A DNA stretch of 12,318 nucleotides from Eggerthellales bacterium UBA948 (lineage in GTDB: Bacteria; Actinomycetota; Coriobacteriia; Coriobacteriales; UBA8131): the NCBI GenBank assembly GCA_002293265.1, contig DBCW01000113.1:5119-17436 (forward strand), read 5' to 3'. Of this stretch, positions 1,181 to 11,643 are shown in pieces (within the stretch, counting starts at the first letter, position 1; every line of letters starts with the position of its first letter). The position numbers were made by a program, and so were the translations under genes. The notes under the pieces are model-generated. The model had not been told where the DNA came from and did no database searches. It worked only from the letters and a program-made list of their open reading frames with translations.

Positions 1181-1861
1181 GTGAAATTTTTCTTGGACAC
1201 AGCCGATCTTACCGAGATCGAAGAGGCGGCTTCTTGGGGGGCACTAGCCGGTGTTACCACCAATCCCACGCTCTATGCCCGTATCGGCGGTAAGCTTGCT
1301 GACTTCCCCGAGCACATTAAGCGCATTTGCGAGATAACAGAAGGTCCGGTATCTGCCGAGGCTGTAGGCACAACTCGCAGCGAGATCATTGCCGAAGGAA
1401 GGCAGCTTGCTGCTCTTGCTCCCAATGTAGTCGTGAAAATACCAACCATGATCGAAGGTTTGGCTGCAACTCGCACATTAGCCAATGAAGGTATCGCGGT
1501 TAACATGACCCTTTGCTTCTCGGTTCCTCAAGCCATATTGGCTGCCAGAAGTGGTGCTCGCTATATCAGTCCTTTTGTTGGGCGCTTTGATGACATATCC
1601 GAAGACGGCATCGAGCAGCTGTCACAGATAGTTGTTGCCCTTAGCAATTACGACTTTAGTGATTCCGGCGTATCCGGGCAAAGTGTTGAGGTCATCGCGG
1701 CATCGATCCGTAGTGCTCAACACGTAACTCAAGCGGCACTCATGGGGGCAGACATCGCAACTGTTCCCTTTAATGTATTAAAGAAATGTGTTGAGCATCC
1801 ACTTACCACAAATGGACTTTTAGCATTTGAGAAAGATTGGGAAAAGGTTATACAAGCATGA
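1181..1861 (+). CDS. tal: Small transaldolase (TalC/FSA family)
   Basis: A 226-residue TIM-barrel enzyme of the short transaldolase / fructose-6-phosphate aldolase family (usual length about 210-225). It is predicted to move a dihydroxyacetone unit between sugar phosphates in the non-oxidative pentose phosphate pathway, in the cytosol. The start is GTG at 1181, with a strong AAGGAGG at 1168-1174 six bases upstream. Visible landmarks are MKFFLDTADL at the N-terminus, GVTTNPT (residues 24-30) and the Schiff-base lysine K86 in VVVKIP. Residue 60 is Glu (in VSAEAVGTT) and residue 132 is Phe (in YISPFVGR). E. coli fructose-6-phosphate aldolase has Gln59 and Tyr131 at these places, whereas transaldolases have Glu and Phe, so transaldolase activity is inferred. 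The stop overlaps the rho start codon (ATGA at 1858-1861), so translation of the two is probably coupled. Confidence 0.92.
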   Translation: MKFFLDTADLTEIEEAASWGALAGVTTNPTLYARIGGKLADFPEHIKRICEITEGPVSAEAVGTTRSEIIAEGRQLAALAPNVVVKIPTMIEGLAATRTLANEGIAVNMTLCFSVPQAILAARSGARYISPFVGRFDDISEDGIEQLSQIVVALSNYDFSDSGVSGQSVEVIAASIRSAQHVTQAALMGADIATVPFNVLKKCVEHPLTTNGLLAFEKDWEKVIQA

Positions 1862-3783
1862 TTCAAAGTACCGAAAACGAGACCTTGGGGCAGGGCGGAG
1901 AGCAAAGCGCTCATACAGAAACAGCAACAGCAGGGGTTTCTTCTGAGCAGACCATAGCAGCTGAGATCGCCCCGGCTGCTCCTACTCCTCGCAGAAGAGG
2001 GCGTCCTCGCAAAGAAGCCAGCGCTGTAACAGATATGCCTGCCGTATCAGAGATCTTTGCCGACACATTCATAATGGGCAGCATTGACTCCCTGACAGAA
2101 CCAAAACCGGCTAAGACAACAAAAGGTAGAGGCAGACCAAAAGCCGGCAAAGCGATTGATGTTGAGAAGGTAAATGATCAAGTCGAGACCGACCAAGCTC
2201 AAGGTCAAGCTAAAACTAAAACCCAAATCCAAGATCAAGTGTCCGCAGAGGCTGCGCCTGCAGAAGCTGCATCGGCTCCGGTAGCGCAGCAAGAAGAAAC
2301 AACACCTGCACAAACTCCCAAAGAATCGCGCAAATCTAAGGGCGGTGGATCAAACAATGGCGGCGGTTCCAACAAGAACAACTCTAATAACGGGCACAAC
2401 AATCAAGGCGGTTCCGGCGGTAAAAAGGGTTATCAAAACCAAGGTCGTCGTCCGCGCAGAAATAACTACAACAATCCTCGCGAGCAGGTAGTTCCTCAGA
2501 CCAGTCGTGAAGATCTTGAAGGTCTAAAAATTGCCGAACTGCGCGAAAAAGCAGCTGAACTTGAGTTAGATATTACAGCCATCAAGAAAAAAGAAGAACT
2601 GATCGAAGCCGTTTTAGATGCCATGGTCAAAGCCGAGGGCTTTGTGGGCTGCGAGGGCATTCTCGATCTTTTGCCTGAAGGTTACGGATTCTTGCGCACG
2701 ACAGGTTATTTGCCGGGCGAGCTTGATGTTTACGTTGGCATGTCTATGGTGCGCCGCAACGGACTACGCAAAGGCGACAAAGTTACCGGTCAGGTCAGGC
2801 CGGCACGCGACAACGAGAAGTACGCCGCGCTGCATCGCATCGACACAGTTAACGGGCTTTTGCTGGATGATTCTCGTGGGCGCAGACGTTTTGCCGACCT
2901 CACGCCGGTGTATCCGGATGACAGACTGCTTATGGAACATGGCCCAAACACCATTACTGCACGCACTATCGACCTTGTAGCACCTATTGGTAAGGGTCAG
3001 CGCGGACTTATCGTGTCTCCACCTAAAGCCGGTAAGACTACCATTCTCAAAGATATTGCCGCAAGCATCTCGGCAAATAATCCCGATGTACATCTGATGT
3101 GTCTTTTGGTCGATGAGCGTCCTGAAGAAGTTACTGATATGGAGCGCTCCATCAATGGAGAAGTGGTCTCCTCAACATTTGATATGCCGTCTGAAAATCA
3201 CATTGCTGTGGCAGAGCTGGTCATTGAGCGCGCTAAGCGTTTGGTTGAAATTGGCAAGGACGTAGTTATCCTTTTGGACTCCATAACCCGTTTGGCTCGC
3301 GCTTACAACTTGGCGCAACCGGCATCCGGACGCATCTTATCCGGTGGTGTGGATTCCACGGCTTTGTATCCGCCCAAGCGCTTTTTGGGCGCTGCCCGAA
3401 ACATCGAAGGCGGCGGGTCGCTGACGATCTTGGCTTCTGCACTCATTGAGACCGGTTCAAAAATGGACGAGGTCATCTTTGAGGAGTTTAAGGGCACCGG
3501 TAATATGGAGCTGAGGTTGGATCGCGATTTGGCAGATCGTCGTATTTTCCCGGCAATCGACCCTGTGGCATCCGGCACACGAAAAGAAGAGTTGCTGCTT
3601 GATGCACAAGAAGCACCACTGATTTGGGCAGTCAGACGCATACTCGCAAATATGAATAATACCGAGCGAGCTATGGAGATGCTCATAAAATCGCTCAAAC
3701 AAACACAAAATAACGCTGAGTTCTTAATGCGAACCGCTAAAAAAGCACAAATAAAGAGCAATACAGAAATAGCTGAACTATAG
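1858..3783 (+). CDS. rho: Transcription termination factor Rho with long disordered N-terminal extension
   Basis: A 641-residue hexameric RNA helicase/translocase that ends transcription of untranslated RNA; E. coli Rho has 419 residues. I chose ATG 1858, which overlaps the tal stop as ATGA, over an in-frame TTG at 1837. Residues 1 to about 215 are low-complexity and probably disordered. They contain two AT-hook-like basic motifs, RRRGRPRK (45-52) and GRGRPK (90-95), and a Gly/Asn/Lys-rich tract at about 161-206. The conserved core follows: a Rho_N helical domain (about 216-258), an OB-fold RNA-binding domain (about 262-340), Walker A PPKAGKT (388-394, K393), Walker B VVILLDS (aspartate at 474), the Q-loop region with [14 protein letters not shown], and the R-loop FKGTGNMEL. 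All core motifs appear intact. Inserted basic N-terminal segments are known in actinobacterial Rho and help RNA binding; the AT-hook and Asn-rich combination is what I see here. No separate promoter or leader is visible, so it is probably expressed from the tal transcript. Confidence 0.97.
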
Positions 3784-3826
3784 TAGACTGAAAACAGCAT
3801 AAGCCGCATCATCGGGGAGGATGAAC

Positions 3827-5938
3827 ATGGCTAGAACAGTTAGCGGACTGGCGCTACGGATATCAGAGATCCGTTTTGTGCGAGCCCTTAATAACGGTCT
3901 CATGAAGGCAATACCATTCATTTTGGCTGGTGCCTTATGTGTTGCTGTATTCAACTTGCCTATCCCGGCGTACCAGGATTTTGTCAGAAATGCCTTTTTT
4001 GGGCAGCTTGCTGTTATCTTTGACAGCATTTCTGCTGCCACGCTAAGCGTTGTCTCTATAGTCGTATTAATTGCTATTTCATACAACTACTCTATAGATG
4101 AACCGATGGTTAAGAATGGCACCATACATCCTTTGGCACCGGTCATTACTGCTTTTTGCTGCTATATAGCGTTATTTATGAGTCTTGAAGCAAGTGGTCT
4201 TATAGCCATCAGCAATCCCGGCAGAGGCGGAATGTTTTTTTCGATGCTACTTGCCCTAGTGGTGCCGTGGCTTTTTTTCGCATTTCTTAAGCTGCGGATG
4301 AAAATCAGACCATATAGATACTCCGCGCTTGATTCTAACCTCTTAATGCGTTTATCTCTGAGAGCTATTTTTCCGGTAACTGCAACGATAGTTACCTTTG
4401 TGGTGTTTAAAGTTGTTGTGCTCGAAAGTGCCCCCATTGAAATGCTGGAAAATGCTTTTCTGCAATTTGCTCAAGCCAATTTGGGCAAAGAAGACATCTT
4501 CTCTGTAATACTAACTGTATTATTGATGCAACTTATGTGGTTTGTAGGCATACATGGCGGGGGAGTAGTATTTGATGACATTATGAACAACGCTACGGTT
4601 CATGATGTTTCATCGATGTTTGCCACGCAAGATTTTTACTTTGTATTTGTAAACATTGGTGGAGCGGGAGCGCTGCTCGGGCTACTTTTAGCGCTATGGT
4701 TATTCAAGCCGGGGTATCGCGAAAAACATCTCGCAAATGTCTCTGCCGTACCGCTGGTCTTTAACATCAACGAATCACTAATCTTTGGTATACCTATAAT
4801 ATTTAACCCATTTTATGCAATTCCATTTATACTTGGTCCTGCACTAATTGCCGCAATTGCCTATGGAGCATTTGCGTCCGGCATAGTGCCTGCCATGACC
4901 TTACATGTGGAGTGGACTACACCTATCATCTTCTCCGGATTTTTAACTACTAACTCAATTGCCGGTGTGGTTCTTCAGTTGGTATGTTTGGGACTTGCGA
5001 TGCTGGTGTACACACCATTTGTGCTTGGATATCGACGCTCCCTTATACGACACCGCAAAGAGCGAGTAGCTGCAATGCAAGATGCTATGACCAAGGCTGC
5101 TGATACCGATGGCATGAGCGTAATTGAACGAGATGATATTATCGGCACAACAGCCCGCGAGATGTCGGCATATATTCACGGCTGCTTTGAATTAAAAGTT
5201 TTGCCGTTCTACTTGGTGTACCAGCCCAAAACAGACAGCCAAGGTAAAGCTGTGGGCGCTGAAGCCTTGCTCAGATGGAAGCACCCTGATTATGGAGTCG
5301 TGTCGCCGATTGTGTTGGTTGAATTATGCGATGAGACAGGTCTTAGCGTAGAGCTTGGTAGGTGGATAACTGCCGAGGGCATGAAAGAGTACAAGCGCTG
5401 GAAAGAACGCGGAATAAAAGACTTGCGTTTATCCATAAATCTGAATCCACGGCACTTTGAACAAGACGATGGTTTCGTAGACTTTTTGGCCGAGCAGATT
5501 CGCGAAAATAACATCAAACCGGGCGAGATAGAGCTGGAGATAACCGAGCATATGGCGATGCACTTTACACCCGCAAATGAACAAGCAATTAAGAGTATTC
5601 GTGAATTAGGAATAGATCTGTCGATCGATGACATGGGTATTGGCTACAGCTCCCTTACATATATCAGCGATTTTGGTGCCAAGCGCATAAAGGTTGATGT
5701 ATCGCTGGTTAGCCAGATAGAAACAGACCGCCAACAACGCGAGATACTTCGCTCCATAGTAAACCTTGCCGAACAACTAGACCTTGGCGTGGTGGTAGAA
5801 GGCGTTGAGCAACAAGGTCAGGTAGATGCACTGGTAGATTTGGGCGTGAAGCACTTTCAGGGCTACTACTTTAGCAAACCCTTAGAGCCAAAAGACTTTG
5901 TGGAGTATGTTGAACAGCATTGTAAGGGTAACGTTTAG
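3827..5938 (+). CDS. PTS EIIC-like membrane domain fused to EAL c-di-GMP phosphodiesterase
   Basis: A 703-residue fusion. I start it at ATG 3827, six bases after GGGGAGG (3814-3820); an in-frame ATG at 3821 touches the Shine-Dalgarno and is less likely. Residues 1 to about 400 are a polytopic membrane domain of the lactose/cellobiose/chitobiose PTS EIIC family: GIHGG (His243) and [13 protein letters not shown] (Glu316) match the sugar-binding His and Glu of ChbC-type permeases, with NES where NEP is usual. A linker (about 405-465) leads to a cytoplasmic EAL domain with the expected catalytic and metal residues: EAL at 479-481, N538, E571 in ELEITE, D601-D602 in the [10 protein letters not shown] loop, K622, E658 in VEGVE, and Q678 in FQGYY. 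It is therefore probably an active c-di-GMP phosphodiesterase. No EIIA or EIIB gene or domain is in the window, so a sensory role (sugar occupancy controlling c-di-GMP breakdown) is inferred, but transport with general EIIB partners remains possible. It starts 43 bases after rho with no terminator between them, so read-through from tal-rho is likely. Confidence 0.9.
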
Positions 5939-6099
5939 AGGAATTTTAATCTGCTAACTTCACATAGCAGTACAGATGCGATAACCTTATCAGCTTGAAG
6001 TTAATGACTTCGATAGCTTTGTATTTGCCGGGCAATTTGGAGGGCAGGCAAATGCGCTGTTTCACAACTACTTAAAGGCTACATTTCGAGAGGCGGATC
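5939..6099. promoter_or_regulatory. Gap before metK, with imperfect palindrome and no recognised riboswitch
   Basis: The 161 bases before metK contain an inverted repeat, GAAGT-TAATG-ACTTC at 5997-6011, which extends with one mismatch to TTGAAGT/ACTTCGA (5995-6013). TTGAAG at 5995-6000 could be a -35, but no good -10 follows at the right distance. I looked for a SAM-box-type leader and did not recognise one. A start-less open frame runs through the right part of the gap (see findings). Confidence 0.4.
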
Positions 6100-7365
6100 A
6101 TGGGCGACATCGGCAACAAAAAAACGTACATATTTACATCAGAAAGTGTGACCGAAGGGCATCCCGACAAGGTTTGTGACCAGGTTGCTGACACCATATT
6201 AGATGCAATCATAGCAAAGGAAGCCGAGCTTGAGGCATCCAGCTATCGCTCACCTGAAGGAGAGACTGCCGATGTAAAAAGCGTTCGCGTAGCTTGTGAA
6301 GCTTTGGCAACAGAAGGTCTGATGATATTAGCCGGCGAGATTCGCACTCAAGCTTACATTGATATCGAATCCATTGCGCGAGAGGTCATCGCTGACATTG
6401 GCTACAACGATCCTGATACCGGATTTCATAGCAAATCCGTTGGTGTCATCAACGCTATTCACGGACAAAGTGCTGATATTGCCCAAGGAGTTGACGAATC
6501 TTTTGAGGTACAGCATAACGTTAATGCCGATGACCCTTACGAGCTTAATGGAGCAGGCGACCAAGGCATGATGTTTGGTTATGCCTGCAACGACACTCCA
6601 ACACTAATGCCTATGCCGATCTTTTTAGCACACCGCATTTCCGAGCGCCTTACCGAGGTGCGCAAGAACGGCACTTTGCCGTATCTGCGCCCGGATGGCA
6701 AAACACAAGTTAGCGTGCGCTACGAGGACGACAAGCCCGTAGCGGTAGAAAAGGTATTGATATCCACACAGCATCAGGACGGCATTGATGTTGAGACGCA
6801 ACTTAAAAACGACCTGATTGAGCATGTGATTACACCGGTATTTGCCGAGTGGAACATCAACTGGAATGATACTGAGGTCTATGTAAACCCCACCGGGCGT
6901 TTTGTTATCGGCGGTCCAACCGGAGACACCGGAGTAGTTGGGCGTAAGATTATTGTTGATACATATGGCGGAAAAGGTCGTCACGGCGGCGGTGCTTTTA
7001 GTGGTAAAGATCCTACAAAGGTGGATCGCTCAGCCGCATATGCGGCTCGTTGGGTAGCTAAAAACATCGTAGCAGCCGGTCTGGCTGATCGCTGCGAAGT
7101 GCAGGTGGCATACGGTATTGGTATGGCTAAGCCGCTATCGCTTATGGTGGACACATTCGGCACCGGCACTGTGGCGGACGAAAAAATTGCCGAGGCAGTG
7201 CGCAAGGTATTTGACCTACGCCCGGCAGCCATTATCGATGTCTTAGACCTACGCCGCCCAATATATAGGAAAACTTCCAACTACGGTCACTTTGGTCGCG
7301 AACTACCGGAGTTCACCTGGGAAAAAACCAACCGCACCGAAGAACTCAAAGCCGCAGTACAATAA
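6100..7365 (+). CDS. metK: S-adenosylmethionine synthetase
   Basis: A 421-residue methionine adenosyltransferase that makes S-adenosylmethionine from methionine and ATP in the cytosol. ATG 6100 has a GAGAGG-type ribosome site ending about six bases before it. Family signatures are all present: [12 protein letters not shown] (GHPDK at 20-24) binding ATP and Mg, the first MAT signature [12 protein letters not shown] (from 151), and the glycine-rich phosphate loop [16 protein letters not shown] (296-311). It is longer than the roughly 384-residue E. coli enzyme, mainly because of an extra segment at about residues 40-58, between the GHPDK helix and the VRVACE strand. The gene stands alone on its strand and is followed by a strong terminator. 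The product feeds methyltransferases such as the convergent gene next door, but that proximity need not be functional. Confidence 0.97.
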
Positions 7366-9685: not shown

Positions 9686-10060
9686 ATGAAGTTTGATTTT
9701 GACAGCGATGTACCAATCTTTTTGCAGATAGCAGAGCAAATTGAAAGCGGCATCTTAGCGGATATCTTTGCAGAAGAGGCTCAGATACCGTCAACAACTG
9801 AAGTTTCGGTAACTTACAAGATCAACCCGGCCACCGTATTAAAAGGTATGAATATTCTTGTGGATGAGGGTCTGGTTTACAAGAAACGAGGTATTGGAAT
9901 GTTTGTTGCCAGTGGCGCGAAAGAAAAGATATTAAGTAAGCGTCAACAAGCTTTTTTTGATACATACATAGTTACGCTTTTGGGCGAAGCTAAGAAGTTA
10001 GGGATTAATAAAGAGCAGCTTTTCAAAATGATCGATGGAGGTATGAGCGATGCAAAATAG
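9686..10060 (+). CDS. GntR-family transcriptional repressor, YtrA subfamily
   Basis: A 124-residue regulator. ATG 9686 follows AGGAGGTG (9676-9683), a near-perfect Shine-Dalgarno, though close to the start. Residues about 8-75 form the GntR winged helix-turn-helix: PIFLQIAEQIESGIL, then the recognition region with INPATVLKGMNILVDEGLVYKKRGIGMFV. The short C-terminal part (about 50 residues) lacks an FCD, UTRA or aminotransferase domain. Short GntR proteins of this kind form the YtrA subgroup, usually the first gene of an ABC transporter operon responding to envelope stress. Its end overlaps the ATPase start by 11 bases, so the two are translationally coupled. It probably binds the inverted repeat at 9602-9623. 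The inducing signal is unknown. Confidence 0.92.
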   Translation: MKFDFDSDVPIFLQIAEQIESGILADIFAEEAQIPSTTEVSVTYKINPATVLKGMNILVDEGLVYKKRGIGMFVASGAKEKILSKRQQAFFDTYIVTLLGEAKKLGINKEQLFKMIDGGMSDAK

Positions 10061-10895
10061 TATCGAAGTCAACAACGTGACTATGAGCTTTAAAAGAGTA
10101 AACGCTCTAAAAGACTTTTCTGTAACATTTGAAGGCGGAAAGATTTATGGGCTTTTGGGGCGTAATGGTGCAGGCAAAACAACCTTGCTCAATGTGATTA
10201 ACAATCGCCTAATTCCAACTGCCGGCGCAGTGCAAGTGGACGGAATGCCAATATGTGAAAACGACAAGGCGCTGGCAAAGATATATTACATTGGCGAAAA
10301 GCAATTAATGCCCGAAGAGATGAAGGTAAAGAACTACTTTGATGCCACAGCTTGCTTCTACGGTTTTGATATGCCATATGCCAATCGCCTTGCAGCCAGT
10401 TTTGGACTTAACACTTCCAAAAAGCTTAAGAGTTTATCCACCGGTTATTCAACAATCGCCAAGCTGATAACCGCTCTTGCATGTGATGCAGAGTATTTGT
10501 TGTTAGATGAGCCGGTGCTGGGATTGGATGCTAACCACCGTGAGTTGTTTTATCGAGAACTTCTGGAAAACTATGCAAAAAAACCGCGCACGATCATTTT
10601 ATCTACTCATTTGATCGAGGAGATATCCAGACTTATTGAGCAGGTTGTGATTATCAAAAATGGTACTTTACTGCTCTTTGCCTCTGCAGAAGAAATGTTG
10701 TCGATGGGTTACTCGGTGTCCGGAAAAGCCGATGAAGTGGATGCGTATTGTGCTGATAAGCGAGTGCTAAGCTCAGACAGTATTGGCGCGCTTAAAACCG
10801 TGTGCGTGTTGGGAAAGCCGCAAAACGTATCGGACTCACTTGAGGTCACTGCCTTAGATATGCAAAAGCTATTTATTCACCTGACAAACAATTAG
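10050..10895 (+). CDS. ABC transporter ATP-binding protein (YtrB-like)
   Basis: A 281-residue ATPase subunit at the inner face of the membrane. ATG 10050 lies inside the end of the regulator gene, with GGAGG at 10037-10041 as its ribosome site. Motifs in order are Walker A GRNGAGKT (37-44), the signature LSTGY (129-133, a variant of LSGGQ), Walker B YLLLDEP (D153, E154), and the H-loop STHLIEE (H187). At the Q-loop position the sequence reads YIGEKQ, with Glu83 where Gln is usual. The last 80 or so residues form a C-terminal accessory region, as in YtrB/BcrA-type exporters. Its partner is almost certainly the membrane protein gene that follows after 16 bases. Substrate unknown; antibiotic or envelope-stress efflux is a family-based guess. 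Confidence 0.93.
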   Translation: MQNSIEVNNVTMSFKRVNALKDFSVTFEGGKIYGLLGRNGAGKTTLLNVINNRLIPTAGAVQVDGMPICENDKALAKIYYIGEKQLMPEEMKVKNYFDATACFYGFDMPYANRLAASFGLNTSKKLKSLSTGYSTIAKLITALACDAEYLLLDEPVLGLDANHRELFYRELLENYAKKPRTIILSTHLIEEISRLIEQVVIIKNGTLLLFASAEEMLSMGYSVSGKADEVDAYCADKRVLSSDSIGALKTVCVLGKPQNVSDSLEVTALDMQKLFIHLTNN

Positions 10896-10911
10896 GAGCA
10901 AAGGAAAGATC

Positions 10912-11643
10912 ATGAGAATCAAAGAAATGGCAAAATGCATTATTTATGATGGTATTAAAATGTTAAGCGTTGTGTATGGTGTCCTGATAGTTTCAACAAT
11001 AGTATTTAATATACTGGTTGCTTTTTTGCCAAACACGAGAATAGGCATGGTTGGTTTTGGCGGCTCTTCTGTAATCGTTCTCTTTATTTTTGGCATCATA
11101 TATTTCTACCAATACATAAAAGTAGGCTTTTCTTTTAGCATCTCTCGTAAGTCGGTTTACTTATCATTTGTTTTATCCGGTGTGGTATTGGCAGTAATAT
11201 CTGCAATCGTGACTGCAATCATCGTTGTGATTGCAGCAGCACTTCCAACAGGGCAAAGCGAAATGACTCAATTTTTTCCACACCTTTATAGCAGCTCCAG
11301 CGAGTTATTTGCAGTATTGGCTTCGGTAGTTATGTTTGCCGCCTTAGCTTTTCTGGGCATGACGTCAGGTTGCTTTATTGGGGTTCTATTCTATCGCATG
11401 AATACGGTGCAGAAAGTTGTTGTATCGGTTGGTGCGGGTTTTTTACTGCCAATGGGGTTATATATTTGGATTGATTTAATGCCAGAGGCTTTGGTTCAAG
11501 CCGTGTTTGGCTGGATATTTGCTATTGCTAATTTTGCTGTCGTGTCGCCTTATAACCTTTCACTGGTATCTATTGCAATCGCAGTCGTATTCATTCTTTT
11601 CTTCTGGCTGCTGATTCGCCGCGCCCCGGTCAAGGATAAGTAG
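10912..11643 (+). CDS. ABC transporter membrane subunit of the YtrA-type operon
   Basis: A 243-residue, very hydrophobic protein with roughly six predicted membrane segments (about 18-40, 50-68, 82-108, 133-157, 166-190 and 194-236, the last long enough for two). A basic C-terminal tail (RRAPVKDK) probably faces the cytoplasm. ATG 10912 is preceded by AAAGGA six bases upstream. It has no recognisable catalytic motif; assignment as the permease rests on its topology and its place 16 bases after the ATPase in a regulator-ATPase-membrane protein operon. A second, paralogous permease, common in such operons, is absent, so the transporter may be a homodimer. A terminator follows. Confidence 0.82.
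   Translation: MRIKEMAKCIIYDGIKMLSVVYGVLIVSTIVFNILVAFLPNTRIGMVGFGGSSVIVLFIFGIIYFYQYIKVGFSFSISRKSVYLSFVLSGVVLAVISAIVTAIIVVIAAALPTGQSEMTQFFPHLYSSSSELFAVLASVVMFAALAFLGMTSGCFIGVLFYRMNTVQKVVVSVGAGFLLPMGLYIWIDLMPEALVQAVFGWIFAIANFAVVSPYNLSLVSIAIAVVFILFFWLLIRRAPVKDK

Follow-up and report, generated by a model that had tools for sequence, protein, structure and literature searches.

The Amt-type ammonium receptors are a known case of a transporter fold turned receptor and are coupled to a cyclic di-GMP (c-di-GMP) enzyme, a cyclase rather than a phosphodiesterase; few c-di-GMP phosphodiesterases have, to our knowledge, a known input signal. In Vibrio cholerae, according to experiments described in the accessible part of PMC6877527, sugar availability controls the EAL phosphodiesterase PdeS, which is bound by EIIA-Glc, a soluble protein of the sugar phosphotransferase system (PTS), depending on phosphorylation state. 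PTS_EIIC domains are rare in c-di-GMP proteins and are classed as phosphoreceivers in the available part of a review (J Bacteriol 2022, PMC8846402); PTS transporters of EIIC type appear in the accessible sections of PMC7329351 as homo-oligomeric elevators, ChbC and MalT being the fixed-barrier cases. The 12,318-nt stretch of Eggerthellales bacterium UBA948 analysed here (the window) carries a gene for an EIIC-type permease domain fused to an EAL phosphodiesterase domain (residues are counted from ATG 3827). The sampled genomes of its class that carry this fusion show no PTS phosphorelay, so that its most likely role is that of a sugar receptor by which c-di-GMP is controlled.

The window protein shares with the Lac/Cel EIICs of the PTS (ChbC, CelB, LacE; structure 3qnq) its sequence family, its fold, and the GIHG and NINE motifs, in which the His and Glu of the sugar site lie, but differs in being fused to an EAL domain, in having no EIIA or EIIB beside it, in the lack of any detected EI or HPr, and in scoring under the NCBIfam cut-offs. 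It is a protein of the kind classed in the available part of PMC8846402 as a phosphoreceiver, whereas the hosts examined here are without a phosphorelay. The likeness to PdeS lies in the control of an EAL phosphodiesterase by sugar, which is only proposed here; unlike that system, as far as the accessible text of PMC6877527 describes it, the permease domain lies within the enzyme itself and no phosphorelay was found. The Amt-type receptors (Sd-Amt1; PDB 8qj3/8qj4) have another fold and another ligand, and their weak fold match to the window protein does not signify kinship. The function of any EIIC-EAL protein was not found in a literature search that left subscription papers mostly outside, and the accessible parts of PMC10333796, PMC1183210, PMC10100716, PMC10513181, PMC2453333, PMC7526171, PMC11878068 and PMC6123363 hold nothing on such a protein.

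The longest open reading frame (ORF) runs from 3821 to 5938 (+) and encodes 705 aa; ATG 3827 is preferred as the start, with GGGGAGG six bases upstream. Pfam PTS_EIIC (PF02378) matches at E 7.1e-29 (101 bits against a cut-off of 30.7; profile 2-319 of 319) and Pfam EAL at E 3.9e-58 (197 bits against 31.3; profile 13-236 of 236). The NCBIfam models lacE and cello_pts_IIC score 180 bits, under their curated cut-offs of 236 and 434, and the EIIC domain is therefore a divergent branch. Since relatives with both domains exist at 69% identity over 100% of the query and at 64% over 94%, the fusion is not an assembly accident. The architecture itself is already known and is confirmed here. Its placement in some Gram-positive bacteria by the first-pass annotation, which was made from the sequence alone, was too narrow, as EIIC-EAL fusions also occur in proteins named Trinickia and Cohaesibacter, and the fusions extend to Bacillota and Pseudomonadota. 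A scan of genome contigs gave one fusion (L005) and two matches confined to the EAL part. One close relative, P0001, is identical to the window protein for about 535 residues and then has a short different tail and an early end; its longest contig is of 59 kb, not the 17 kb contig of the window, and either the allele is broken or its assembly is at fault.

As the same annotation had noted, no EIIA or EIIB accompanies the gene: profile scans of ten window ORFs recognised neither. Profile searches of the host genome (2.89 Mb, 180 contigs) found no HPr, no EI and no EIIB of the PF02302 type, the one family of EIIB or EIIA that was searched genome-wide, and the fusion gene is the sole PTS_EIIC match and the sole EAL match. 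The genome does hold the diguanylate cyclases on which the proposal depends, in the form of two GGDEF proteins, together with an HD-GYP-type response regulator. Because of the latter, the idea that the cell has no other c-di-GMP phosphodiesterase than the fusion was rejected.

The same contrast extends across relatives. Fusions were called at E up to 1e-60 in samples of 197 genomes of the order and 396 genomes of the class, and the comparison of fusion with PTS applies to this class. In the order sample the fusion occurs in 27 genomes, HPr in 101, and EI over its curated cut-off in 101, with one additional match below it (G135). HPr was found in none of the 27 fusion genomes against 101 of the 170 others, and the figures for EI are the same (0/27 vs 101/170). 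In the class sample the fusion is present in 26 genomes and HPr in 186, again with no overlap (0/26 vs 186/370); the union of both samples holds 32 fusion genomes, all without HPr. None of the 27 fusion genomes of the order has a PTS_EIIC match other than the fusion. Assembly gaps do not explain the missing PTS, because 11 of the 27 belong to family f2 and are 99-100% complete, five of them in a single contig. With HPr, EI and PF02302 EIIB found in no fusion genome checked, the EIIC domain can hardly serve here as a PTS transporter or a phosphoreceiver. The new observation of this work, well supported within this class, is that the fusion sits in genomes in which no PTS phosphorelay can be detected.

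In a tree of EIIC domains (partial L023 left out), which includes 12 of 23 and 24 of 48 fusions from two protein groups (P0046-P0071 and P0073-P0120, respectively), the fusions of the order fall in three separate places, namely family f1, ten f2 rows, and G146. The pairing of fusion with PTS absence is thus probably not a single inherited event. Within one genus (g77), the fusion is present and HPr absent in G146, whereas G313 carries HPr and was not called as a fusion genome.

The sugar site was followed in an alignment of 140 rows, of which 98 fusions (16 of f1, 11 of f2, and the 23 and 48 from the two protein groups) and five plasmid-borne, real PTS EIICs were counted; the other 37 rows, near relatives from P0002-P0045, stayed outside the counts, proteins shorter than 640 aa fell outside the alignment, and gapped f1 rows are partial genes (G117, G133). 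The window EIIC is of the chitobiose/cellobiose type with His243 and Glu316, as first described, and both residues align with residues of bcChbC (Table 1; numbered by counting from the 3qnq alignment) that we take to have a role in sugar binding. His243 is retained in 97 of the 98 fusions and Glu316 in 96, the other two having Asp. The five PTS EIICs, four of which are adjoined by EIIB and EIIA genes, all have both residues, and conserved Gly and Pro positions are common to them and the fusions. The case for direct sugar sensing is built chiefly on this point, that the sugar site is retained although no phosphorelay was detected in the cells.

The EAL domain also appears intact. E479, N538, E571, D601, D602, K622, E658 and Q678, which are presumably its catalytic and metal-binding residues, are all present in the window protein, in agreement with the initial description, and gaps in partial rows aside show zero substitutions across the 98 fusions. 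An AlphaFold2 model (mean pLDDT 85.6, pTM 0.74) supports both the EIIC and the EAL fold. The top EIIC fold match is ChbC (3qnq), at an rmsd of 9.1-9.8 A, which may reflect another conformation or an imperfect model. Two modelled helices connect the domains (Table 1), and Gly440, within the second, is invariant in the 44 aligned members of a fold alignment of chosen rows (A1). A HAMP linker was considered, as a DExG-like motif in the linker (430-445) of relatives resembles the second helix of HAMP, yet no HAMP profile match was obtained in 44 members scanned with the E limit set at 10, although above about 0.1 most matches are removed by the HMMER filters.

Taken together, these data suggest that the fusion is probably a sugar receptor, made from an orphaned PTS permease, that gates the EAL phosphodiesterase through a continuous helix. 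The EIIC domain would bind a beta-linked disaccharide or a similar sugar at the His243/Glu316 site, presumably without net transport; as the host is without EI, HPr and PF02302 EIIB, no phosphoryl group would be deliverable to it. Bound sugar would shift the elevator-type transport domain, and the movement may travel down the last membrane helix (to residue 427) and then the linker helix 438-456, altering the packing or activity of the EAL dimer, which would then hydrolyse more or less c-di-GMP. EAL enzymes act as dimers. Since elevators are homo-oligomeric as well, a dimer in which motion of the transport domain resets the EAL interface would be a natural mechanism, and we infer such a coupling here. 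With somewhat less assurance the proposal may be extended to the Coriobacteriales EIIC-EAL proteins as a group, which would then be PTS-independent sugar receptors, an old and separate sensor clade rather than transporters with a tail, PTS-less lineages keeping an EIIC solely to read outside sugar and set c-di-GMP. If true, the sugar-receptor proposal would provide a clear example of how a group-translocating transporter can be turned into a receptor, much like the receptors derived from ammonium transporters. PTS-less hosts separate the phosphoreceiver from the receptor reading cleanly: because they have the fusion and no PTS, any effect of sugar on the enzyme would have to come from direct binding.

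Several observations weigh against the sugar-receptor proposal. The host genome is only 83% complete. The absence of EIIB is that of PF02302 (0/27 fusion genomes, vs 4/4 f2 controls with HPr and EI), to which the search for EIIB and EIIA families was confined. Fisher tests of the association (4e-10 for the order, 3e-8 for the class) are uncorrected for kinship, and family f1 has 33 genomes in the order sample, 16 with the fusion and none with HPr, so that independent events are fewer than the raw counts. PTS absence also extends beyond the carriers, HPr being missing from 69 of the 170 fusion-free genomes, including all 17 fusion-free f1 genomes, and PTS loss alone therefore does not call for the fusion. 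With the limit at 1e-60, PTS-bearing genomes could hold fusions too divergent to be called, the PTS comparison covers this class, and the separate branch of fused EIICs depends on five PTS EIICs and a midpoint root. Certain residues vary as well. A member of the same genus (G133/L005) has Asn (codon AAC) at the position of His243, so that either the His is dispensable or the draft contig, which has unread bases, is in error; N315 is Ser in 10 of 11 f2 rows, G244 is replaced by Asn or Tyr in four of the 16 f1 rows, the EAL loop residue G604 is Ser in 11 of 11 f2 rows, and D624 is Ala in one f1 row. In 18 other loci, with flanks of unequal length and some short contigs, no sugar kinase, glycosidase or regulator lies consistently beside the fusion (ORF starts, judged by eye). 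Finally, the retained pocket would fit a facilitator too.

The last point leads to the strongest of the competing explanations, a transceptor whose EIIC domain lets sugar diffuse in unphosphorylated and whose EAL domain is linked in its activity to flux or occupancy. A direct coupling of transport to c-di-GMP breakdown had been offered in the first-pass annotation beside a sugar sensor; its PTS-coupled form is very unlikely given the absence of HPr from all 32 and of EI from all 27 fusion genomes, which strengthens the sensor, and facilitated transport is the one form of it that remains. The full EIIC profile and fold, and the pocket and Gly/Pro positions common with the five PTS EIICs, are in keeping with a working facilitator. 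EIIC transport, however, is normally coupled to phosphorylation, with leakage mainly in mutants, and the lack of consistent sugar genes beside the fusion counts against this explanation too, which is accordingly judged unlikely. Less likely again is an inside-out arrangement in which c-di-GMP, sensed by the EAL domain, gates the permease and so controls sugar entry. The same anatomy would serve, and EAL domains can be c-di-GMP receptors, as in LapD and FimX, but a pure receptor would have no need of the eight residues found unsubstituted in the 98 fusions, and there is no phosphorelay to power uptake.

It is improbable that PTS components are present and were missed, through draft gaps, a very divergent EI or HPr, or a donor of another family. 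The incompleteness of the host and of the other f1 fusion genomes (57-93% complete) would allow for this, but identical searches were positive in 101 relatives and negative also in the 11 near-complete f2 fusion genomes. Slightly less probable is that the membrane part is a plain anchor, tethering a constitutive and local phosphodiesterase, as the pocket stays near-invariant even where identity to the window protein falls to 26-30%, which would be unexpected of an anchor. Least credible of all is control of the phosphodiesterase by PTS phosphorylation of the EIIC domain, which is stated in the part of PMC8846402 available and has a parallel in the action of EIIA-Glc on PdeS, but is strongly disfavoured in this class by the absence of HPr and EI from the fusion genomes.

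Table 1. Features of the EIIC-EAL fusion gene and its immediate neighbours in the window
Feature	Position	Strand	Remarks
EIIC-EAL fusion gene	3827..5938	+	703 aa from ATG 3827; in-frame alternative ATG 3821
PTS_EIIC domain, lactose/cellobiose/chitobiose type	3893..4840	+	residues 23-338
His243	4553..4555	+	aligns with bcChbC His250 (phmmer alignment to 3qnq)
Glu316, in NINE motif	4772..4774	+	aligns with bcChbC Glu334 (phmmer alignment to 3qnq)
Continuous helix 378-427, predicted last membrane helix and cytosolic stalk	4958..5107	+	AlphaFold2 model
Second linker helix 438-456, with Gly440	5138..5194	+	AlphaFold2 model
EAL phosphodiesterase domain (predicted activity)	5207..5881	+	residues 461-685
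rho	1837..3783	+	TIGR00767, 620 bits; 43-base gap to ATG 3827
metK	6100..7365	+	TIGR01034, 545 bits; next gene downstream, neighbour only

The proximity to rho, which had been remarked on as an unusual operon context, is not a general feature of the fusions. Matches to tal and rho were found in only 2 of the 18 other loci (L040 and L041, of one genus), one of them convergent, and are lacking in L005 from the same genus as the window. A functional operon with rho was rejected on this ground, and the neighbourhood appears mostly incidental. No known RNA element was found in the window by Rfam at gathering cut-offs, and a scan of 3600-6200 yielded no usable signal, with 2 promoter-like sites (5.4 expected) and 5 terminator-like sites (2.0 expected), all inside the gene. 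Ahead of the Rho profile, the window Rho is extended at its N-terminus by some 220 residues, among which Asn, Gly, Lys and Gln abound, and the longest frame of rho overlaps the end of the transaldolase gene. In four of seven f2 loci (L046, L048, L049 and L051) the gene after the fusion encodes some 960-980 aa and is uvrA-like by eye from its first residues.

Elsewhere in the host genome, a GGDEF gene, the gene for an HD-GYP-type response regulator, and genes for a V4R protein and a T2SSE (PilT-like) ATPase cluster together (L054, 4679-9931), which suggests type IV pili as a c-di-GMP output in the host. Further along the window (9686-11643), a GntR regulator, an ABC ATPase and a membrane protein without a Pfam match form a tight run, in which we presume a resemblance to the YtrA-type small ABC operons. 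The start of the window's contig (L055, 317-3517) encodes a putative surface protein of 1066 aa with repeats. Close to it, also upstream on this contig, are a flavin oxidoreductase and a protein whose match to cytochrome c3 falls slightly under the cut-off, a pair that would suit a respiratory life.
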